A stretch of 64,000 nt of DNA from Emticicia sp. BO119. GTDB taxonomy: Bacteria > Bacteroidota > Bacteroidia > Cytophagales > Spirosomataceae. Numbering within the stretch: the stretch's first letter is position 1; the number at the start of each line of letters is the position of its first letter. Shown here piece by piece: positions 1 to 9,262 of this stretch. The notes under the pieces are model-generated. The model searched no databases. It worked only from the letters and a program-made list of their open reading frames with translations, and was not told where the DNA came from. A program made the translations under genes and the position numbers. The stretch lies in NCBI RefSeq assembly GCF_013912375.1, contig NZ_JACETV010000010.1, forward strand, positions 124,001 to 188,000, in the 5' to 3' direction.

Positions 1-474
1 TTTCTTCATATACTCTACATAACTTGCCATATTAAGTCGATTAAAGTACTGATTAAAATTCTTTGGATGATAAAAGAACTTCTTGTACTTCTGACCGATA
101 TACCATTGATAGCCAAACAAAGATGGGAAACCCTGTAATTCAATTAATTGCGGGCTTAATTCTCCTTTTTCGTCACGAGTGACGGCAAAATCAATAGCTA
201 AAAAATTCGGATGGCTATCTTCATTAGGTACTATCTGGTTAATCGGAATCGCCCTTTCAGTTTTAGATTTAAAATCATCTTTCAACAGTGTATCAATTAT
301 ATCGTTGCAAGCCTGTAGTAGCTTGATCTTGAGCAATTGAGGTACAAAAACCGGAGTTTCTGCTACACGAAAATCTAATTGAGATGGGAAATCCTTTTCA
401 ATTTCTGCTAATAGAGCCTTATATTTTTCTGGAGAAAAACTTTCGTTGAATTGATGACGGATTTCGGGTATCAT
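1..474 (-). CDS. Uncharacterised protein, 3' end cut by window edge; possibly ATP-grasp-like
   Basis: The reading frame is open from the ATG at 474 to the left edge, giving 158 residues with the C-terminus missing. I do not recognise the family. It has no signal peptide or membrane segment. The most distinctive stretch is a run of the type AIDFAVTRDEKGE..PQLIELQGFPSLFGYQ at about residues 93-123. This resembles the segment of atypical ATP-grasp enzymes in which a strand ends in an acidic Mg-binding residue (L-I-E-L-Q). That resemblance is my inference and is weak. It is the last visible gene of a minus-strand run with an amidotransferase, an amide ligase and an ATP-grasp gene, so a role in the same pathway is likely. 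The frame extends upstream to GTG 507 and TTG 528, but the ATG fits best. Confidence 0.6.
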   Translation of the reverse strand, partial: MIPEIRHQFNESFSPEKYKALLAEIEKDFPSQLDFRVAETPVFVPQLLKIKLLQACNDIIDTLLKDDFKSKTERAIPINQIVPNEDSHPNFLAIDFAVTRDEKGELSPQLIELQGFPSLFGYQWYIGQKYKKFFYHPKNFNQYFNRLNMASYVEYMKK

Positions 475-587
475 ATTATGAAAGGAATTTAATGTGATGA
501 ATACCACCAGCGTTAGAAGAAAATACAATAAAAAGATAATCTATCAAATAAATAAGGTTTGCAATTTCCCCAGACTCGATACTTATT

Positions 588-1397
588 TTATGCCAGTTCT
601 AAGATGCGCTCAGCAGCATTTCTTAAAAAAGTAGGGATAACCACAGATTCGGTCAGCATAATTTTATCAGGGTCGTCTAAACGTTCAATCATTTCCTCAT
701 ATTTTTCAGTACCATATTCCTTAATGACTGCCAACATCTTTTCTTCCTGCTTGAAATACCGCATCATACCTTCAGAGTCAGCTTCGGGATGAAATTGAGT
801 TCCAAAGACTTCATCAGAGAATCGGATAGCCATGATCGCACGCTCTAAAGGAACATAGGGTCTGACTTTCTCCAGACATAAAACTTTGGCTCCGAATCCA
901 GTGATTTTATTCCAGTTTGGTTGAATTAATTGATAGTCTCTTGAATCAACGGCATAGAAGATTTCAGGTAATTTTTCGAAGAAAGGCTCATTGTTACCCT
1001 CTTCTGTACGATGAATTGGCATTACTCCAAAAGAAGTGGATCTTCTTTTGCAAACATTCCCGAATCCTAAATGATGGCTGGCTATCTGGAAAGAATGGCA
1101 TATCAGGAAAAGGTACTTCTTAACCTCATTTAGTTGGTTATATTCAAAGATACTATCTACAAAATCATTAAATTGTTTCTCCCAAAGATTACCTTCCGGT
1201 AATGGATTGCCAGGGCCTCCGGTAGAAATAAAAATCTGATATTTATTAATATCAGGAATTTCGTTTTTTTGCCTTACATCAAAAATATCATAGCTGCCAA
1301 CTCCTTGTTCAGACAAAAACTGATTACATAACATCTTTATACAGCGCATACCTTCGTTTGGTCGGCCATCGTACATATCTAAAATTGCAATATTCAT
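588..1397 (-). CDS. Class I glutamine amidotransferase-like protein
   Basis: Cytoplasmic GATase1-fold protein of 269 residues. The catalytic triad is visible: Cys100 in LICHSFQ, and His203 and Glu205 in TQFHPEADS. The oxyanion-side glycine loop STGGPGNPL lies at about residues 58-66. In the family this domain hydrolyses glutamine or a gamma-glutamyl amide and passes ammonia to a partner synthetase. No synthetase domain is fused here, so it acts alone or with a neighbour. It lies between the unknown edge gene and a carboxylate-amine ligase, which suggests that it removes or supplies an amide or gamma-glutamyl group in that pathway. The frame also starts at GTG 1403, but ATG 1397 gives a cleaner start (MNIAILDMYDG). 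The TAAATTTG promoter and palindrome at 1447-1469 suggest that it can be transcribed separately. Confidence 0.85.
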   Translation of the reverse strand: MNIAILDMYDGRPNEGMRCIKMLCNQFLSEQGVGSYDIFDVRQKNEIPDINKYQIFISTGGPGNPLPEGNLWEKQFNDFVDSIFEYNQLNEVKKYLFLICHSFQIASHHLGFGNVCKRRSTSFGVMPIHRTEEGNNEPFFEKLPEIFYAVDSRDYQLIQPNWNKITGFGAKVLCLEKVRPYVPLERAIMAIRFSDEVFGTQFHPEADSEGMMRYFKQEEKMLAVIKEYGTEKYEEMIERLDDPDKIMLTESVVIPTFLRNAAERILELA

Positions 1398-1406
1398 AAA
1401 CACTCA

Positions 1407-1428
1407 GGCTTGCCTAAATCGGCAAGGC
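1407..1428 (-). promoter_or_regulatory. Hairpin in 5' leader of the amidotransferase gene
   Basis: CTTGCC (1409-1414) pairs with GGCAAG (1421-1426) around a 6-nt loop, with one mismatch and one more G-C pair outside. It ends about 10 nt upstream of the ATG at 1397, so in the mRNA it sits next to the translation start and could affect initiation. Function not known. Confidence 0.35.
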
Positions 1429-1446
1429 ATAAATTAGTAAAATTAA

Positions 1447-1469
1447 CACAAATTTAATGTAAATTTGTG
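1447..1469 (-). promoter_or_regulatory. 23-bp palindrome overlapping a -7 box
   Basis: CACAAATTTA (1447-1456), ATG spacer, TAAATTTGTG (1460-1469): a perfect 10-bp inverted repeat. Each arm contains the Bacteroidota -7 box TAnnTTTG, one in each direction (TAAATTTG on minus at 1456-1449, on plus at 1460-1467). The minus-strand copy is well placed to drive the amidotransferase gene. The symmetry could instead mark a dimeric regulator site. No clear -33 element is seen. Confidence 0.45.
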
Positions 1470-1500
1470 GATTCGGCTAAAAAACTACGAGTTAAACTAA

Positions 1501-1531
1501 TAATCCTGCAAGGACCAGACATGCAGGATTA
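1501..1531 (-). terminator. Hairpin downstream of the carboxylate-amine ligase
   Basis: TAATCCTGCA (1501-1510) and TGCAGGATTA (1522-1531) form a perfect 10-bp stem with an 11-nt loop. It lies 50 bp past the ligase stop codon. A T-run follows only after some distance on the minus strand, so it is a weak terminator or an mRNA-processing and stability hairpin. Confidence 0.5.
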
Positions 1532-1580
1532 GTTAAACCTAAAAGTATTTAACAAAAATATCTGGGTTTGTAGTTCATAT

Positions 1581-2678
1581 TTATAGCCCGATTTTAGTCT
1601 CTGAAACAATATAATCAACCACTGTTTTCAGGCTCTTGGTTTCTTCAAATACTTTCAACTGTCTGTCAGCACCACTACCCATTCTGAGTATTTCATGAAT
1701 ATATTCCACCTCTTTGCGGCTTCCTAATTCATCTAAAACATCATCAACAAACTCCATGAGTTCTTCCGCAAGGTAAGAATATGGCACCTCAACCTCTTTC
1801 CCAAAATCAATCAGATTACCATGAATACCATATCTTGCCGCTCGCCATTTATTTTCACTGATAAGCATTCTGTGGTAAGTACGGAAACTCAGATTCTGTT
1901 GATGTAATTTATGAATTTTTGCAATAATGGCTTGCATCAGAGCAGCCAGGCAAATGGTTTCATCAACCCTCATCGGAATATCGCATATTCTGAATTCGAC
2001 AGTTGGGTAGAAAGGATGAAGTCGGATATCCCACCAGATTTTTTTTCCGTTATCAATACAATTAGTTTTTACCAAAAGATTAATATAATTATCATACTCT
2101 GCTACACTTGAAAAATAATCAGGAATGCCTGTTCTCGGGAATTTGTCAAAGACTTTCGATCGATAAGATTTAAAGCCTGTATTTCGGCCACACCAAAAAG
2201 GAGAATTGGTAGAAAGTGCATAAATATGTGGCAGGAAATATCTTGCAGTATTTAATATTTGCATTCCCTCTTCCCGGTTTGGAATACCAACATGAACGTG
2301 TAAACCAAAAATTAGATTTGAACGGGCCACGTCACGCATATCATCAATCAATTTTTCATACCTTTCATTTGGCGTAATCAATTGTTTTTGCCAATCAGAA
2401 AATGGGTGAGTCCCGGCCGCTGCTATGTGAAGATTCTGTTTAGCAGCCAGGTCAAACAACATTCTACGCAAATAGGTTACTTCTTCTCTTGCTTGTTGAA
2501 TATTTTCACATACACTCGAAATCATCTCAACCACAGCCTGATGCATTTCCTGTTTAATTCTTTCTTGTAAAATTACCTGACCACCCTCAACTAATTTAGA
2601 CATATGAGAGCGAAGCTCACGCGTTTTTGGGTCAATTGTCTGAAATTCTTCCTCAATACCTAATGTAAATTGTGACAT
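1581..2678 (-). CDS. Carboxylate-amine ligase, GCS2 (YbdK) family
   Basis: Cytoplasmic ATP-dependent ligase of 365 residues, the usual length of the YbdK branch of the glutamate-cysteine ligase family 2. The N-terminal signature LGIEEEFQTIDP (residues 6-17) supplies the metal-binding acidic residues. Further family motifs are GLHVHVGIPNREEGM (about 124-138), EFRICDIPMRVDE (about 228-240) and the late ENKWRAARYGIHG (about 276-288). The family joins a carboxylate, typically glutamate, to an amine through an acyl-phosphate. YbdK-type members have only weak glutamate-cysteine ligase activity and their true substrates are usually unknown. Flanking hairpins separate it from both neighbours. It is 86 bp downstream of the ATP-grasp gene, which may supply or extend the same product. 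Confidence 0.9.
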   Translation of the reverse strand: MSQFTLGIEEEFQTIDPKTRELRSHMSKLVEGGQVILQERIKQEMHQAVVEMISSVCENIQQAREEVTYLRRMLFDLAAKQNLHIAAAGTHPFSDWQKQLITPNERYEKLIDDMRDVARSNLIFGLHVHVGIPNREEGMQILNTARYFLPHIYALSTNSPFWCGRNTGFKSYRSKVFDKFPRTGIPDYFSSVAEYDNYINLLVKTNCIDNGKKIWWDIRLHPFYPTVEFRICDIPMRVDETICLAALMQAIIAKIHKLHQQNLSFRTYHRMLISENKWRAARYGIHGNLIDFGKEVEVPYSYLAEELMEFVDDVLDELGSRKEVEYIHEILRMGSGADRQLKVFEETKSLKTVVDYIVSETKIGL

Positions 2679-2722
2679 AATTTTCTTAGTTCAGGGTGTT
2701 AACAGTGGAACAGTTTAGTATC

Positions 2723-2752
2723 GGTTGGCAATAAATAGGTGTATTGCCAACC
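2723..2752 (-). terminator. Hairpin between ATP-grasp and carboxylate-amine ligase genes
   Basis: GGTTGGCAAT (2723-2732) and ATTGCCAACC (2743-2752) form a perfect 10-bp stem with a 10-nt loop. It starts 12 bp past the ATP-grasp stop codon. There is no long T-run after it on the minus strand, so it may attenuate rather than end transcription. Confidence 0.5.
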
Positions 2753-2764
2753 TTAATCAATGAT

Positions 2765-3865
2765 TTATTTTTTTGTAGAAGCTTTTTTAGGTGCATCTTC
2801 CTTTTTAGTAGCAATAGCTTTCTTAACAGGTGCTGTTTTTGTTGTTGCCTCTGCCTTCTTGGCAGGAGCAGTTTTTTTATCTGATGCCGGAGCCTGAGGT
2901 ACATAAGGCGCAGTATTTCCTACAGCAGAACCTACAAATGTGCCCCATGTACAGTTATTCTGTCCATCCTTTTGCTCAATGGCTCTTTCAATTGCCATTT
3001 TTGCCGCATTTTCTACAATCCATTCAAAATTATGCTGACCTACAGAGTTTACATCTGCATCAGGAGCAGGGTTACAGAAATCAATTGCGTATGGAATTCC
3101 GTCTCGAATAGCAAATTCTACTGTATTGAAGTCATAGCCTAAAGCCTTATTTAATTTCAATACATAATCGGTAATGGTTGCCATAAGTTTTTTATGCTCT
3201 TCTCCTTGAGTTTTTGGTTGAGTAGCATATCTTAAATGATGCGGGTTGCGGGGTTCGTATGGCATTATATGTACATATTTACCGTTTAAACAATAACAAC
3301 GGTAATAATCTGTAAACTGAATTTCTTCCTGCAACAACATTACTAACTGCCCGGTTTCTTCATGCTTTTGCCATAGGTCATTTGGGTCATATACTTTGTA
3401 AACACTTTTCCAGCCACCACCGGCATGAGGCTTCATATATGCCGGGAAACCAATTTGCCCAAACATATATTCCCAATCCATCGGAAACTTCAGGTTTCTG
3501 AACGATTTCTCAGTCGTATCTGTAGGTCGCTCTTTTGAAGGTAATAAAACAGTTTTTGGTACAGGTACACCAAGTTTAACTGCCAGACAGTTGTTGAAGA
3601 ATTTTTCATCTGCACTCCACCAGAATGGATTATTAATTACTGCAGTACCACAAAGGGCCGCATTTTTAAGATAAGCTCTGTAGAATGGGACATCCTGAGA
3701 AATTCGATCAATAATTACTGCATAATCAGTTGCAACTCCTTGCTCTACTTTAGCAATAGACACCGGCTCTGCAATAATTCCGGCAGGAGCAGTTCTATTA
3801 ACTTCTTCAATAAATGCCCACGGAAAAGTATCTTCCATGCCAAAAAGAATTCCTATTTTTTTCAT
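2765..3865 (-). CDS. ATP-grasp ligase with Lys/Ala/Thr-rich C-terminal tail
   Basis: Cytoplasmic ATP-grasp protein of 366 residues. The N-terminus KKIGILFGMEDTFPWAF resembles the first Rossmann-like segment of D-Ala-D-Ala/RimK-type ligases. Later visible parts are FPAYMKPHAGGGW (about 138-150, the nucleotide-binding lysine and glycine loop), LLQEEIQFTDYYR (hinge strand), FNTVEFAIRDG and AIDFCNPAPDAD (about 265-277), where Glu/Asp/Asn should bind Mg. The family forms amide or peptide bonds through an acyl-phosphate. Residues from about 325 onward are a low-complexity tail with repeated KK, AP and TK units, unlike a folded domain and unusual for the family. ATG 3865 is preferred over TTG 3871. 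The substrate is unknown; the neighbours suggest an amino-acid or peptide conjugate. Confidence 0.85.
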   Translation of the reverse strand: MKKIGILFGMEDTFPWAFIEEVNRTAPAGIIAEPVSIAKVEQGVATDYAVIIDRISQDVPFYRAYLKNAALCGTAVINNPFWWSADEKFFNNCLAVKLGVPVPKTVLLPSKERPTDTTEKSFRNLKFPMDWEYMFGQIGFPAYMKPHAGGGWKSVYKVYDPNDLWQKHEETGQLVMLLQEEIQFTDYYRCYCLNGKYVHIMPYEPRNPHHLRYATQPKTQGEEHKKLMATITDYVLKLNKALGYDFNTVEFAIRDGIPYAIDFCNPAPDADVNSVGQHNFEWIVENAAKMAIERAIEQKDGQNNCTWGTFVGSAVGNTAPYVPQAPASDKKTAPAKKAEATTKTAPVKKAIATKKEDAPKKASTKK

Positions 3866-3959
3866 AAACAAGTCTTGATTAAATAATCTATATTTTTTTA
3901 ACTGAAATTATTACAACTCCTTTTATTATCAGACCTCGTCAAATCTGAATGGTCATAAC

Positions 3960-4679
3960 TTAAATTTGCCCGGCTATCATTTTACCTATATACTCCGGGA
4001 ACATCATACGCCATAAGGGCCAATCGTGTGAAGCCCATTTTTTCTCGTCATACCAGTGGTCAATTCCTCTTTCTGCCAAAATACGAGACATACTAATATT
4101 ATCATCTTTACAAATATCCCAATCAGATGTTCCTAAGACAATTTTCATATGATTATATTTCCACCCTTCCTGATTTTGCATATAATCTATCGGATTATTA
4201 AAATAAACATTGTCATCAAAATAACCTTTCATAAAGCTCTTTATATCAAAAGCACCACTCATGCTGAAACAATAGTCTACTACATCAGGGTATTTAAGTG
4301 CAAAATTGGTACAATGATAACCACCAAAGCTACACCCGGCTACAGCTACTCTATGCACACTACATTCTCTTTGAATTGCGGGGATAAGCTCTTCACGAAT
4401 AAATCGGGTATATAGATTGTAATTGAATATTTTAACATTCGGAGATAAGCCTTGTGCGTAAAAACTCTGAAAATCTATGCTATCTACATTGTATAGTTTT
4501 ACTTTCCCTTCGTTTACTAAATTAGCAATTGAATTATTGAGTCCGAAATCTCGGTTTTGAAGATAGTTCCCCATAGAAGTAGGAAACATAAGAACAGGAT
4601 ACCCCCAATGTCCGCTTACTAAAAGGTCTATATCTCTACCCAGAAAATGAGAAAAGAATTTAATGTGTTTTTCGTCCAT
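3960..4679 (-). CDS. Alpha/beta-hydrolase, esterase-D-like
   Basis: Protein of 239 residues with no signal peptide, so probably cytoplasmic. The nucleophile elbow is GCSFGGYH (Ser at about residue 121). The likely acid is Asp in GTSDWDIC (about 183-190) and the likely base is His in WASHDWPLW (about 217-225). The fold fits the putative-esterase family (PF00756-like), whose members cleave esters, thioesters or amides. It is the first gene of the minus-strand amide-ligase cluster, about 95 bp ahead of the ATP-grasp gene, so it may hydrolyse or transfer an acyl group from the cluster's product. The exported esterase starting at 4964 is of the same broad family but is divergently transcribed and carries a signal peptide. 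Confidence 0.85.
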   Translation of the reverse strand: MDEKHIKFFSHFLGRDIDLLVSGHWGYPVLMFPTSMGNYLQNRDFGLNNSIANLVNEGKVKLYNVDSIDFQSFYAQGLSPNVKIFNYNLYTRFIREELIPAIQRECSVHRVAVAGCSFGGYHCTNFALKYPDVVDYCFSMSGAFDIKSFMKGYFDDNVYFNNPIDYMQNQEGWKYNHMKIVLGTSDWDICKDDNISMSRILAERGIDHWYDEKKWASHDWPLWRMMFPEYIGKMIAGQI

Positions 4680-4885
4680 ACAGCTTAGAGTGTTAAAAAA
4701 GTCTTTGCTTTAAGAGCAGTTTATTTGATTGATGAAATATTTTTAATGCAAAAATCGTATATTATGTGTGAATGAAAAAATATTTTACCAAATAAAATTT
4801 TGAATAACAATTGTATGGTATTTTGTATTTGAAATAAAATTTTGTAAAAACTTTTTTATAAAAAATAAAATATTGTTTTGTGGGG

Positions 4886-4920
4886 TTTTGATGTTTTCGG
4901 GTGCTGAATTTGTATTTTTG
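4886..4920 (+). promoter_or_regulatory. Putative promoter for exported esterase
   Basis: A TATTTTTG box (4913-4920) matches the Bacteroidota -7 consensus TAnnTTTG. A TTTTG (4886-4890) lies 22 bp upstream as a possible -33 element. The start codon at 4964 is 43 bp downstream. The divergent gap 4680-4963 is otherwise very AT-rich, with no other feature seen. Confidence 0.4.
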
Positions 4921-4963
4921 TCAGAATAAAACATTTAACTGAAATATTAGTCGATTTTAACTA

Positions 4964-5857
4964 ATGAAACAAATGATTTGCAAAAATTTTGTTCCTTCAA
5001 CTTGGCTAATAGCTTTTTTATCAATCTTTTTACCAATTAAAACCTATTCACAAGTGCATCAGATTTCCGTTAGTAGAAACCTTAAAATTAATTCAGAATA
5101 CCTCAATAGGGAAGTTGCTTATGATATTATTTTACCCCCACAATTCAACGCCAAAAATGATTATAATAAAGTGCTTTTTATGAACGATGGTCAGGATTTG
5201 GAAGTACTCAATATGGAACAAATTCTTCAAAATCTTTATCAAAACAATGAGATCGATCCTTTTGTTTTAGTAGCAATTCATACCAATGAAAACAGAATTA
5301 AGGAATACGGTACTGCCGCTATGGCTGACTATAAAAACAGGGGGAACCTGGCCGGGAAATATAATAACTTTATAGTAAAGGAACTATTACCTCAAATCCG
5401 GATGGCCTATAATACCTCCATGCGAAAGCAGGATAATTTCTTCTGTGGTTTTTCATTAGGGGGGCTTTCTGCAATGGATATTGTCTGGAATAACCCTGAT
5501 ACCTTTGCTAAGGTAGGCGTTTTTAGCGGGTCTTTCTGGTGGAGGAAGAAAGCATATGAGGAGGGCTACGATGATGATAAAGATAGAATTATGCACGATA
5601 TAGTGAGAAATGACAGTTATCATAATGGACAAAAATTCTGGTTTGAATGTGGAACAAATGATGAAAAAGATGACAGAAATAAAAATGGAATAATCGATTC
5701 AATTGAAGATACTCTTGATCTCATTACGGAATTGGAAAACCTTGGATACAGAAAAAACGTTGATATAGTATATTATGAGATAAAAGAAGGTGAGCATAAC
5801 CAGAAGACATGGAGTGAAGCAATGCCGGTCTTTTTGAAATGGCTGATCGGAAAATAA
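4964..5857 (+). CDS. Exported alpha/beta-hydrolase (putative esterase)
   Basis: Protein of 297 residues. Residues 1-30 form a signal peptide (hydrophobic STWLIAFLSIFLPI, cleavage after TYSQ). The mature part is a PF00756-type esterase with nucleophile motif CGFSLGGLSAMD (Ser at about residue 167), an acidic loop rich in Asp (DEKDDRNKNG), and a C-terminal EGEHNQKTWSEAMP with the likely catalytic His. The family includes enterochelin-esterase-like and feruloyl/acetyl esterases. The substrate cannot be read from the sequence. It should act in the periplasm. The DUF5686 gene follows after 36 bp and may be co-transcribed. Confidence 0.85.
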   Translation: MKQMICKNFVPSTWLIAFLSIFLPIKTYSQVHQISVSRNLKINSEYLNREVAYDIILPPQFNAKNDYNKVLFMNDGQDLEVLNMEQILQNLYQNNEIDPFVLVAIHTNENRIKEYGTAAMADYKNRGNLAGKYNNFIVKELLPQIRMAYNTSMRKQDNFFCGFSLGGLSAMDIVWNNPDTFAKVGVFSGSFWWRKKAYEEGYDDDKDRIMHDIVRNDSYHNGQKFWFECGTNDEKDDRNKNGIIDSIEDTLDLITELENLGYRKNVDIVYYEIKEGEHNQKTWSEAMPVFLKWLIGK

Positions 5858-5893: not shown

Positions 5894-8512
5894 ATGCATA
5901 AACAATCGCTCATTTATTTTTTCTTCTTTTTCTATACTGAAATACAGGCAGGAGGGATAAAAGGAATAATTACTGATACAAAAGGCGAACGCCTTCCTTT
6001 TACTTCCGTAATTGTAAAAGGTCTGAATTCTGGTACAATGGCTAATGCTGATGGTGAATACCTGATAAATCTCAAGCCGGGAAACTATGATATTAACTTT
6101 CAGTTTTTAGGATATAAAACCCTGACGCGGCATATAGTAATTGGGCAGGACTTTGTTGAAATGAATATAAAAATGGAAGAACAAACCATTACTCTGAAAG
6201 AGGTAAACATAAGTTCAAAGGAAGAAGACCCCGCTTACACTATCATGCGTAAAGCTATAGCTAAAAGTAAAATCCACCAGAAACAGGTAGTTAATTATCA
6301 GGCCAAGGCCTATGTCAAAAACTCAATTCTTCTCAACAAAATCCCATTAGTTTTAAGAAAAGATTTAAATAAGCAGAATATTAAGGAAGGAGTGCCGTTT
6401 TTGTCAGAATCTGTAATGGAGATAAGTTATACCGAGCCTAATGCTAAATACACCAAAATTTTTGGACAGAAAAGCACTTTTGATGGTATTTCAATTTCCG
6501 ATGGCTTTTACCTGTTTGATTTTTATGACCCTGGTAACAATCGTATATCTCCACTCTCGCCTTTAGCTTTTAAATATTATAAATTTGAATATGAAGGCTT
6601 TTTTGAAGACAGAGGATTAATAGTAAATAAGATTAAAATTATTCCGAAATCTTATGGCGATGGTGTCTGGCAAGGGACCATACATATTATTGACGATTTC
6701 TGGAATATCCATAGTATAGATGTTGAAACAATTGATAATGGACTTAATCTGAAATTGAGCCAGTATTATGGGCCAATTGAAAAAGTATGGCTACCGATTA
6801 ATCAACGCCTTGATTTCTCAGGAAAACTATTTGGCTTTGACTTTCTGATAAAGGCTCAGGTAAATGCAAATTACTCAGCCATAAAAACGAATCCTACTTT
6901 TGTTGAAGAAATTAAACTGATAGATGAAACTAAAGAGGGTAAAATTCAGGAACTTCTTACCCGAAAAACTTTAAAAAACTCAAAAACGGAAGAATTACTG
7001 AAAGACCAGAAAGAATTTTCCATAAAGAATCTTAAGAGAATAATGAAAGATTTTGAAAAGGAGGAAAGGGTTCGTGCCAAGGAAAAAAACGAAGATTTCG
7101 GAGTTATTAGTAATGAAATTATTGAAATTGATCCAAAGGCAAAAAATAGAGATTCTACCTATTGGAATTCAGTCAGAAATATTCCATTAACTGCCGAAGA
7201 AAAAGAAAGTTATGAGTTTGGTGATAGTATAAAAGTTGCTCAGGTGCTCAAAAGAGATAGTCTTAAAAGAGATTCTATCCGAAAGTCATGGCAGTACTTT
7301 ATCATGAATTATGATTTCAAACTTAAAAATGGCAGGTATTTACATTTTGAGCCACCATATATGCCTTTGGTTGGTCTAAACTATAATTCAGTAGAGGGTA
7401 TTGTGGCAGATTTGGGGTTAGGGTATAAAAACTATACATTTTTTAGCCCAAGAGTCAGGTTTAAATACAATGTTTATGGTAATATTCGATATGCTTTTGA
7501 GGAAAAAAAAGTGAGAGGGAAATTAGGCTTTGAATTTGAAAAAGGACCGTCAAAAATCACATTTGGTATTGGTAAATATATTGCTCAGTTTGATCCGAAT
7601 AGTTTTATATTTGAGTGGATGAATTCTGTTACTACACTTTTGAATGAACAGAACTTTCTGAAAATCTATGATAAAAAGTATATTAACCTCGCATATACCT
7701 ACGAACGGGACCCAAGATTGAGTTTAACAACTAATTTAGAGGTAGCCGAAAGATTTCCTTTAGAAAATTTAAGTAAAATTTATACAATTAAAGACTTTGA
7801 AAAAAATGGCTTTTCTATCAATAACCCGCCAAGTATTGAATTAGGAAGTGGAGCTTTTTCAAAACATACCGCATTTATATGGCAAGGCCAGGTAAAGTGG
7901 ACTCCCTCCTCAAAAATTGCCATTCGGAATGGTATTCGCAAAATTCTTATCGGCAAAGCCCCAGCCATAACGCTGACCTATAAAAAAGGGATGATTGATA
8001 CAGATTTTGATTACCTTAGCCTGAATATTAAACAGAATATTAGTCTTGGTCAACTTGGAAAATTAGATTATATGTTTGAAGTAGGAGACTTTCTGAATGA
8101 TAGAAAAGTTTATCTTATGGATATGAAACATATCAACAATAATTATCTGAATGCCTTGCAAACTGGCTTGTTTGCAAGGTATAGGTTGTTAGATACAAGA
8201 GTGCCTGTAGAAAAAGAAGAGAATATAAGCTATATTAATCAATATAAATTTAGTACAAGCGGACCTTACCTGCAAGGACATATTATTAATGAATTTAAGA
8301 AATTGCTATTTACTCAAGCTTCATTTGTCCGGATATGGGGATTAAAAGAAGATATTTTTGTGAATTATCTTAATTCACCCTCCTTGAAAAACTATGTTGA
8401 AATTGGCTATGGGATTGATGGAATTTTAAAAGCTCTCCGCATTGAGGCTGTAACAAGTTACGAAAATGGGAAATACCAAAGGTGGGGAGTTAAATTGGGT
8501 GTAACAATGTAA
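5894..8512 (+). CDS. DUF5686 outer-membrane protein with carboxypeptidase-regulatory-like N-domain
   Basis: Protein of 872 residues. A short signal peptide (about residues 1-20) is followed by a carboxypeptidase-regulatory-like beta-sandwich (about 21-105) with the typical ADGEYLINL and GYKTLTRHI motifs. The rest is the DUF5686 region. A middle section rich in Lys/Glu (about 350-460) leads into many alternating aromatic strands predicted to form a beta-barrel, ending in the short strand RWGVKLGVTM. The family is widespread in Bacteroidota and its role is unknown. A paralogue lies at 50623-53115. The L,D-transpeptidase follows after 12 bp, so an envelope role is plausible. Confidence 0.85.
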   Translation: MHKQSLIYFFFFFYTEIQAGGIKGIITDTKGERLPFTSVIVKGLNSGTMANADGEYLINLKPGNYDINFQFLGYKTLTRHIVIGQDFVEMNIKMEEQTITLKEVNISSKEEDPAYTIMRKAIAKSKIHQKQVVNYQAKAYVKNSILLNKIPLVLRKDLNKQNIKEGVPFLSESVMEISYTEPNAKYTKIFGQKSTFDGISISDGFYLFDFYDPGNNRISPLSPLAFKYYKFEYEGFFEDRGLIVNKIKIIPKSYGDGVWQGTIHIIDDFWNIHSIDVETIDNGLNLKLSQYYGPIEKVWLPINQRLDFSGKLFGFDFLIKAQVNANYSAIKTNPTFVEEIKLIDETKEGKIQELLTRKTLKNSKTEELLKDQKEFSIKNLKRIMKDFEKEERVRAKEKNEDFGVISNEIIEIDPKAKNRDSTYWNSVRNIPLTAEEKESYEFGDSIKVAQVLKRDSLKRDSIRKSWQYFIMNYDFKLKNGRYLHFEPPYMPLVGLNYNSVEGIVADLGLGYKNYTFFSPRVRFKYNVYGNIRYAFEEKKVRGKLGFEFEKGPSKITFGIGKYIAQFDPNSFIFEWMNSVTTLLNEQNFLKIYDKKYINLAYTYERDPRLSLTTNLEVAERFPLENLSKIYTIKDFEKNGFSINNPPSIELGSGAFSKHTAFIWQGQVKWTPSSKIAIRNGIRKILIGKAPAITLTYKKGMIDTDFDYLSLNIKQNISLGQLGKLDYMFEVGDFLNDRKVYLMDMKHINNNYLNALQTGLFARYRLLDTRVPVEKEENISYINQYKFSTSGPYLQGHIINEFKKLLFTQASFVRIWGLKEDIFVNYLNSPSLKNYVEIGYGIDGILKALRIEAVTSYENGKYQRWGVKLGVTM

Positions 8513-8524
8513 TAATTTCATTAT

Positions 8525-9262
8525 ATGAAAACGCTAATCGTAACTATTCTGAGTATGGCACTGATTTCTTCAGAACCGGATTTCTTTAAAAAACAATTAG
8601 AATTTTCAAGAGTTGCCAAAGCCTATGCTTTAAAAGGCAAGGAAATAGATAGATTATTAAAAATAAAAAATATTAATACTGAAAAGTATGATCTTTTTTT
8701 GCGTGCTTTTAAAACAGAAAAACAATTAGAAGTATGGGCAAAAAATAAAAACCAGGGCATTTTTACTTTAATCAAAACGTATAAATTTTGTAAGTCTTCA
8801 GGAGAGTTAGGGCCGAAAAGACGTGAAGGTGACAACCGGATTCCCGAGGGATTTTATCAGGTAAATAATTTTAATCCTCAAAGTACTTATCACCTTTCAT
8901 TCAAAATAAATTACCCCAATAAGTCTGATATGATTTTTGGGGATAAGAAACATCCTGGTAATGATATTTATATACATGGCAAATGTGTAACAATTGGCTG
9001 CATACCTTTAGGTGATAACAATATTGAAGAGTTATATTTATTGGCAGCAAAAGCCAGAAGTTCAGGCGGGGTAATTCATGTACATATTTTCCCGGCAAAC
9101 CTTAAAAAAGCGGCTTATGCAAAATTACAATCAGAGTATCATGGTAATCAGGAGTTATTGAAATTCTGGTCTGATCTTAAACCTGTCTTTGATGCATTTG
9201 AAGAAAACAAGTGCCTGCCTCAAATAGGACTTGATGATAAAGGAAGATACCGAATCATTTAG
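8525..9262 (+). CDS. YafK-type L,D-transpeptidase family protein
   Basis: Protein of 245 residues with an N-terminal hydrophobic segment (about 1-16), so secreted or membrane-anchored. The YkuD-fold signature is clear: a basic loop PKRREGDNRIPEGFYQ (about 97-112), then IHGKCVTIGC with His151 and the nucleophile Cys159. This family forms or cuts bonds between meso-diaminopimelate stems of peptidoglycan, or between peptidoglycan and attached proteins. The HGxCxTxGC spacing fits the YafK branch. It directly follows a DUF5686 outer-membrane protein and likely shares its transcript. Confidence 0.9.
   Translation: MKTLIVTILSMALISSEPDFFKKQLEFSRVAKAYALKGKEIDRLLKIKNINTEKYDLFLRAFKTEKQLEVWAKNKNQGIFTLIKTYKFCKSSGELGPKRREGDNRIPEGFYQVNNFNPQSTYHLSFKINYPNKSDMIFGDKKHPGNDIYIHGKCVTIGCIPLGDNNIEELYLLAAKARSSGGVIHVHIFPANLKKAAYAKLQSEYHGNQELLKFWSDLKPVFDAFEENKCLPQIGLDDKGRYRII

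Follow-up and report, generated by a model that had tools for sequence, protein, structure and literature searches.

A conserved Bacteroidota operon of amide ligases and hydrolases as a candidate pathway for a small peptide–amine conjugate

Genes at the locus and their families

The stretch analyzed here (hereafter the window: 64,000 nucleotides of the 6.57 Mb genome of Emticicia sp. BO119, contig NZ_JACETV010000010.1, C2:124001-188000) begins with five open reading frames (ORFs), all on the minus strand, which fill positions 1–4679 and encode an esterase (EST), an ATP-grasp ligase (AGR), a carboxylate-amine ligase (GCS2), a class-I glutamine-amidotransferase-like protein (GAT), and a further ATP-grasp-type ligase (U; Table 1). 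We propose, with a probability of roughly 0.6, that these genes specify a single pathway, free of carrier proteins, for the assembly and turnover of a small peptide–amine conjugate. An earlier note on this DNA had described a cluster of five minus-strand genes with active-site motifs and two amide-forming ligases. The five ORFs, their strand, and the motifs are borne out, and the Cys102, His205, and Glu207 triad of GAT is invariant in 20/20 aligned homologs. However, the window edge cuts off part of the fifth gene, a sixth, divergent gene (EST2) belongs to the arrangement, and the ligases are three by fold, U being the third.

The ORF of U (L002:9278-10528) extends 723 bases past the edge, stop codon included, and an ATG at window position 474, placed by alignment, yields a protein of 398 amino acids; since this reading frame runs on intact outside the window, U as a lone truncated gene is ruled out. 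GAT probably starts at the ATG at 1397 (with a GTG at 1403 as the alternative) and AGR probably at the ATG at 3865. Behind the 3′ end of U lies a strong hairpin with a T-run (−18 kcal/mol, z −4.1), which is absent from the list of a simple terminator scan, while an Rfam scan of L002 9000-16000 returned nothing at gathering score. A promoter scan gave 40 sites compared to 31.6 (sd 4.4) in shuffles, and is not used as evidence.

For U of the window, no match was obtained in Pfam (E up to 10) or NCBIfam (E up to 1). Its predicted model, however, matches solved ATP-grasp members of the glutathione synthetase, GspS, and YgiC type over the full length, and D95, E112, and K298 are invariant in 12/12 rows of a low-identity sequence alignment including YgiC, Gss, and the c40 family described below; we take these residues to be the catalytic Asp, the catalytic Glu, and the ATP-binding Lys, as in Gss. 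Where c40, YgiC, and Gss carry E-x-N, the Mg-binding motif, U has E112-x-Q114. Matches to the Pfam family GSP_synth were weak in 11/28 U members (best E 0.0024), and that of L096 reached 11.5 of the required 29.3 bits. Because neither the family scores nor the E-x-N motif agree with membership, U is assigned by fold only, outside the YgiC/GspS families proper. U and AGR share the ATP-grasp fold, yet a comparison of their profiles revealed no relation.

The predicted model of AGR (residues 1–297) displays a RimK/LysX-like ATP-grasp fold, with RimK and LysX/ArgX as the closest solved structures, yet its match to the RimK family TIGR00768 (5e-7) reaches 29.5 of the required 143.4 bits. Two R2K families also score below their curated cut-offs (R2K_2, 2e-4, 21.7 of 26.2 bits; R2K_3, 15.4 of 26.3 bits), and R2K_2 matches at E up to 0.01 were found in 8/32 AGR members. 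In PMC4431377, the R2K clade is characterized by an additional Lys/Arg in the loop that follows the strand-2 Lys and by the lack of the linker Lys that otherwise precedes the RAGNYA domain. AGR has the additional basic residue, with K145 invariant and a Lys or Arg at position 153 in 20/20 aligned rows. The alignment also indicates an apparent D-x-x-N where E-x-N is usual (motif rule as given in PMC4431377). The C-terminal tail of AGR (window 2765-2945) consists of ~60 residues rich in Lys, Ala, Thr, and Pro, with a composition that by eye resembles histone H1; such tails vary in length among several relatives and are absent from others.

GCS2 exceeds the curated cut-offs of PF04107 (6e-64, 216.5 of 21 bits), PRK13515 (559 of 371 bits), and TIGR02050. 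GAT passes that of PF00117 (2e-7, 31.3 of 22.8 bits), and no fused synthase domain was found in a Pfam scan. EST matches the esterase family PF00756 at 9e-11. EST2 matches enterochelin esterase at 1.5e-13, but with 50.5 of 222 bits, an IroE-like hydrolase (3gff) at 3e-7, and S-formylglutathione hydrolase weakly (0.0034, far under the cut-off).

Table 1 Features of the locus (window positions).
Feature	Position	Strand	Description
U	1..474	-	First 158 codons of an amide ligase of the ATP-grasp type (398 aa); fold label YgiC / glutathionylspermidine synthetase / eukaryotic-type glutathione synthetase; whole gene C2:123278-124474
GAT	588..1397	-	Class-I glutamine-amidotransferase-like, Cys-His-Glu triad; probably product hydrolase
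GCS2	1581..2678	-	GCS2/YbdK family carboxylate-amine ligase (PRK13515)
AGR	2765..3865	-	RimK/LysX-like ATP-grasp ligase; C-terminal tail (about residues 308-366) rich in Lys/Ala and modeled at low confidence
EST	3960..4679	-	Alpha/beta-hydrolase, PF00756 esterase; by eye without signal peptide
Intergenic region	4680..4963	.	Divergent; common to EST and EST2
EST2	4964..5857	+	PF00756 esterase; signal peptide by eye; divergent from the operon, conserved beside it

Conservation, co-occurrence, and exchange of genes

We evaluated the conservation of this arrangement in 61 U neighborhoods (that of the window and 60 fetched from 152 other U-positive genomes) from samples of 148 genomes of the order and 395 genomes of the phylum Bacteroidota. 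GCS2, AGR, GAT, and EST were found anywhere in the stretch in 30, 27, 27, and 18 neighborhoods, respectively, one of the 18 EST loci (L070) having a distant esterase in opposite orientation. Within six ORFs on either side of U the corresponding counts were 30, 27, 26, and 17, with the next family at 8 loci, and an all-against-all clustering of the 883 ORFs of these neighborhoods likewise placed U and the four partner families on top, the next family being seen in 10 loci. As called genes, EST-AGR-GCS2-GAT-U were strictly consecutive in 12/61 neighborhoods. Among the best 80 of 591 confirmed U matches in named genomes, all titled as Bacteroidota groups and some on contigs that end early, 34 loci had EST2 divergent from EST, AGR, GCS2, GAT, and U in this order and 6 were identical minus EST2; the remaining loci comprised 19 with GAT and U alone, 8 with U alone, and 13 intermediate ones. 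The 40 full-order loci span metagenome-assembled genomes and 11 genera (Larkinella, Spirosoma, Arsenicibacter, Hymenobacter, Lacihabitans, Arundinibacter, Dyadobacter, Arcicella, Telluribacter, Chitinophaga, and Mucilaginibacter), so that the gene order is not confined to this genome. At one locus (L192) an AGR-GCS2 block and a GAT-U block are convergent, which suggests that the system can split into two transcription units.

The operon genes also co-occur in genomes that have them apart. Among the 148 genomes of the order, U was detected in 50, AGR in 49, GCS2 in 40, and GAT in 51; AGR and GCS2 never occurred without U, GAT did so in 3 genomes, and U lacked AGR in 1 genome and GAT in 2. In the phylum sample, AGR was found in 134 genomes and U in 115, with both in 110. 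Overall, the system is present in roughly 30% of the sampled phylum genomes, mostly in single copy. The recurrence of the partner families, the gene order, and this co-occurrence rule out a chance neighborhood. A mobile origin was also set aside: no AGR or U match was found in a plasmid collection (72,556 records), and no AGR match in a phage collection (50,697 records; searched for AGR), while GCS2 matched 69 plasmid records, each at <60% identity.

We also chose 80 genomes non-randomly from the phylum sample. The 127 from which they were drawn carry AGR or U and exclude those counted as positive in the order sample; the choice took in all 24 with AGR only, all 5 with U only, and 51 of the 98 with both, spread over families. 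The U match of one genome (G403) is weak (4e-5) and probably spurious, and is still counted among the 115 above and the 56 U-positive genomes of this set. In seven genomes an M29 metallopeptidase replaces GAT between GCS2 and U, as read from the locus (G126, G438, G237, G408, and G388) or from coordinates (G201 and G392), with a 137-aa ORF intervening in G408; M29 also lies near U in G027 and elsewhere in G346. Within the chosen 80, GAT was found in 43 genomes, close M29 (57–68% identity) in 7, and both in none, and the GAT-bearing genomes of some families had distant M29 only (25–30% identity); for the order sample, close M29 comes from the fetched loci of G126 and G027. On an AGR tree of 50 rows, from which those of the 80 named loci were left out, the M29 label has to change 5 times, and well-supported branches force at least 4 of these changes. 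Because an unrelated peptidase takes its place, GAT more likely hydrolyzes an amide than supplies ammonia. The earlier note's glutamine amidotransferase would thus be a hydrolase. No further family recurs nearby as an ammonia-taking partner, although the pathway ligases themselves could be that partner. In families f44 and f47, neither GAT nor close M29 was found in the seven genomes tested, and an amidohydrolase (PF07969 in the three members scanned) immediately precedes U, in the same orientation, in 7/8 fetched U loci (L102, L103, L105, and L107-L110), overlapping U in four; it is possibly a third substitute for GAT.

U can likewise be exchanged. A circularly permuted ATP-grasp protein, c40 (Pfam, 4 members scanned), adjoins AGR in 16 of the 24 AGR-positive, U-negative genomes (by coordinates, AGR and GAT flank it in 15), and had no match among the 56 U-positive genomes. 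The seven c40 bearers on the AGR tree fall on one side of a branch (100/99). A profile comparison of U and c40 (E 5.8e-4, probability 29% over 190 columns), together with the low-identity alignment and weak Pfam matches, points to a possible kinship between the two. At four c40 loci (L215, L216, L221, and L223), a further esterase of the PF00756 type (c87, from a scan of one member) comes after GAT. The other eight AGR-positive, U-negative genomes comprise one fragmented assembly (G515) and seven carriers of AGR-like proteins at 33–43% identity (G154, G231, G302, G423, G492, G504, and G522), without any U, c40, GAT, or GCS2 match. We judged these seven proteins to be paralogs forming an uncharacterized group, and the six with a fetched neighborhood (L224-L229) were excluded from the tree.

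A putative conjugate pathway and its alternatives

The genes and their families, the modeled folds of U and AGR, the conservation, the co-occurrence, and the slot swaps form the basis of the pathway that we propose, in which GCS2, where present, would form a gamma-glutamyl or similar amide, AGR would join an amino acid to an amine, and U would couple the peptide carboxylate to a further amine such as a polyamine or amino acid. GAT or its substitutes would cut an amide bond in the product or an intermediate, while EST (intracellular) and EST2 (extracellular) may strip ester or thioester substituents. That the ligases serve one pathway, and without a carrier protein or nonribosomal peptide synthetase (NRPS), had been suggested in the earlier note. 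The first point agrees with the full order in 40 of the 80 named loci and with co-occurrence beyond adjacency, and the second with the lack of either among the nine flanking genes of the window locus (flanks of relatives being partly annotated, ORFs ≥80 aa). Its gamma-glutamyl conjugate holds in part: since the system persists in entire lineages that lack GCS2, gamma-glutamylation cannot be obligatory.

Several observations weigh against the proposed pathway. GCS2 is missing from all 10 U-bearing genomes of family f4 (of 50 U-bearing in the order sample), from 8/16 c40 genomes, and from 4/51 genomes with AGR and U in the chosen 80, and 18 of these 51 have neither GAT nor close M29, so that the hydrolase is not universal. 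Within the stretch covered, 27/80 named loci show GAT-U or U alone, and EST and EST2 occur in part of the loci only. The Fisher values for co-occurrence (1e-38 and 1.5e-66) ignore phylogeny and are descriptive only. In addition, the E-x-Q motif implies that the chemistry of U may differ from that of YgiC, Gss, and c40, and the hydrolase in the GAT slot could be regulatory or cut an unrelated amide.

Among the alternatives, protein or peptide tagging, in which AGR would add glutamate or a short peptide to a protein, U would cap it with an amine, and GAT or M29 would remove it, is improbable but survives best. RimK and LysX/ArgX are the closest folds of AGR, the R2K clade weakly matched by eight AGR members is proposed to modify proteins (PMC4431377), and the exchange of hydrolases is compatible with tag removal. 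Yet no protein of at least 80 aa that could serve as the target is found repeatedly next to the operon, and the fold relatives of U act on small peptides and amines. Linked ligases, moreover, often make peptide metabolites, as stated in PMC4431377.

Somewhat less probable still is a low-molecular-weight thiol of the glutathione or trypanothione kind, for which GCS2 would make gamma-Glu-Cys, AGR and U would complete the molecule, and EST would act as an S-acyl- or S-formyl-thiol hydrolase. GCS2, an ATP-grasp ligase, and a GspS/glutathione-synthetase fold do make up the parts list of glutathionylspermidine synthesis, and EST2 has its weak similarity to S-formylglutathione hydrolase. However, GCS2 is dispensable, the best fold matches of AGR are RimK and LysX (a list whose lack of GshB does not in itself exclude that enzyme), and a gene for BshC, which completes bacillithiol synthesis, is present in the genome, so that a thiol should already be available. 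A siderophore or antibiotic-like secreted metabolite that is made without an NRPS and opened by the enterochelin-esterase-like EST and EST2 is very unlikely, since, despite the enterochelin esterase and 3gff matches of EST2 and its secreted appearance, no other family recurs beside the operon near the members' rate, no siderophore receptor or exporter is among the nine annotated flanking genes here (those of relatives being partly annotated), and the system is mostly single-copy at its roughly 30% frequency in the phylum.

Taken together, the wide distribution, the co-occurrence with few exceptions, and the slot-by-slot swaps argue for a real pathway with a defined product. Tentatively, the product may be a widespread undescribed Bacteroidota metabolite, a peptide–amine conjugate and perhaps a gamma-glutamyl-peptidyl-polyamine, for which two folds supply the three amide ligases. 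Its modules would be interchangeable, with either U or c40 acting as the last ligase and with turnover by GAT, by M29, or, in some lineages, by the amidohydrolase. No paper was recognized as dealing with this operon in a search of titles and abstract openings, subscription papers being mostly outside its reach. The U family (398 aa), for which searches of Pfam and NCBIfam gave no match, would gain a function class, and a search for the product is feasible in cultured genera, including Dyadobacter, Spirosoma, Hymenobacter, and Chitinophaga.

Beyond EST2, the plus strand of the window encodes a DUF5686 protein with a carboxypeptidase-regulatory-like domain (5894-8512), a YkuD L,D-transpeptidase (8525-9262), and, side by side, two secreted carbohydrate esterases of the SASA type that resemble each other (PF03629; 9403-11646 and 11754-13739), the first with a C-terminal type IX secretion sorting domain (PF18962). 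Left of the window, behind the U hairpin, lies an Apiosidase-like glycoside hydrolase (PF13204; L002:7768-9135, minus strand).

Comparison with known systems

AGR differs from RimK, LysX, and ArgX in its low TIGR00768 score and its apparent D-x-x-N in place of E-x-N. GCS2 belongs to the YbdK/GCS2 family by all three cut-offs, although the name of PRK13515 gives no substrate; YbdK itself has weak gamma-glutamyl-cysteine ligase activity. The PuuA-PuuD gamma-glutamyl amine cycle pairs a glutamine-synthetase-fold ligase with a class-I GATase-like hydrolase. The same pairing of ligase and GATase-like hydrolase is seen in this operon, which differs in its extra ATP-grasp ligases and esterases and in that the nine annotated flanking genes of the window locus include none for amine oxidation.

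At the level of the operon, Iyer et al. 2009 (Mol Biosyst 5:1636) reportedly predicted operons of linked ATP-grasp and glutamine-synthetase-fold/GCS2 ligases. Here too, distinct ATP-grasp and COOH-NH2 ligases are found in one conserved operon, and such linked-ligase operons are already a described kind, often making peptide metabolites (PMC4431377, citing Iyer et al. 2009). Compared to the peptide-spermidine ligases YgiC/YjfC and to the glutathionylspermidine synthetase-amidase Gss, U is 9–16% identical, carries E-x-Q instead of E-x-N, and has no GSP_synth score seen over the cut-off; relative to Gss, the hydrolase is separate and of another fold, and the operon adds GCS2 and a RimK-like ligase. 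By analogy, the proposed pathway might thus work like the glutathionylspermidine synthetase/amidase pair, extended by RimK-like and GCS2 ligases.

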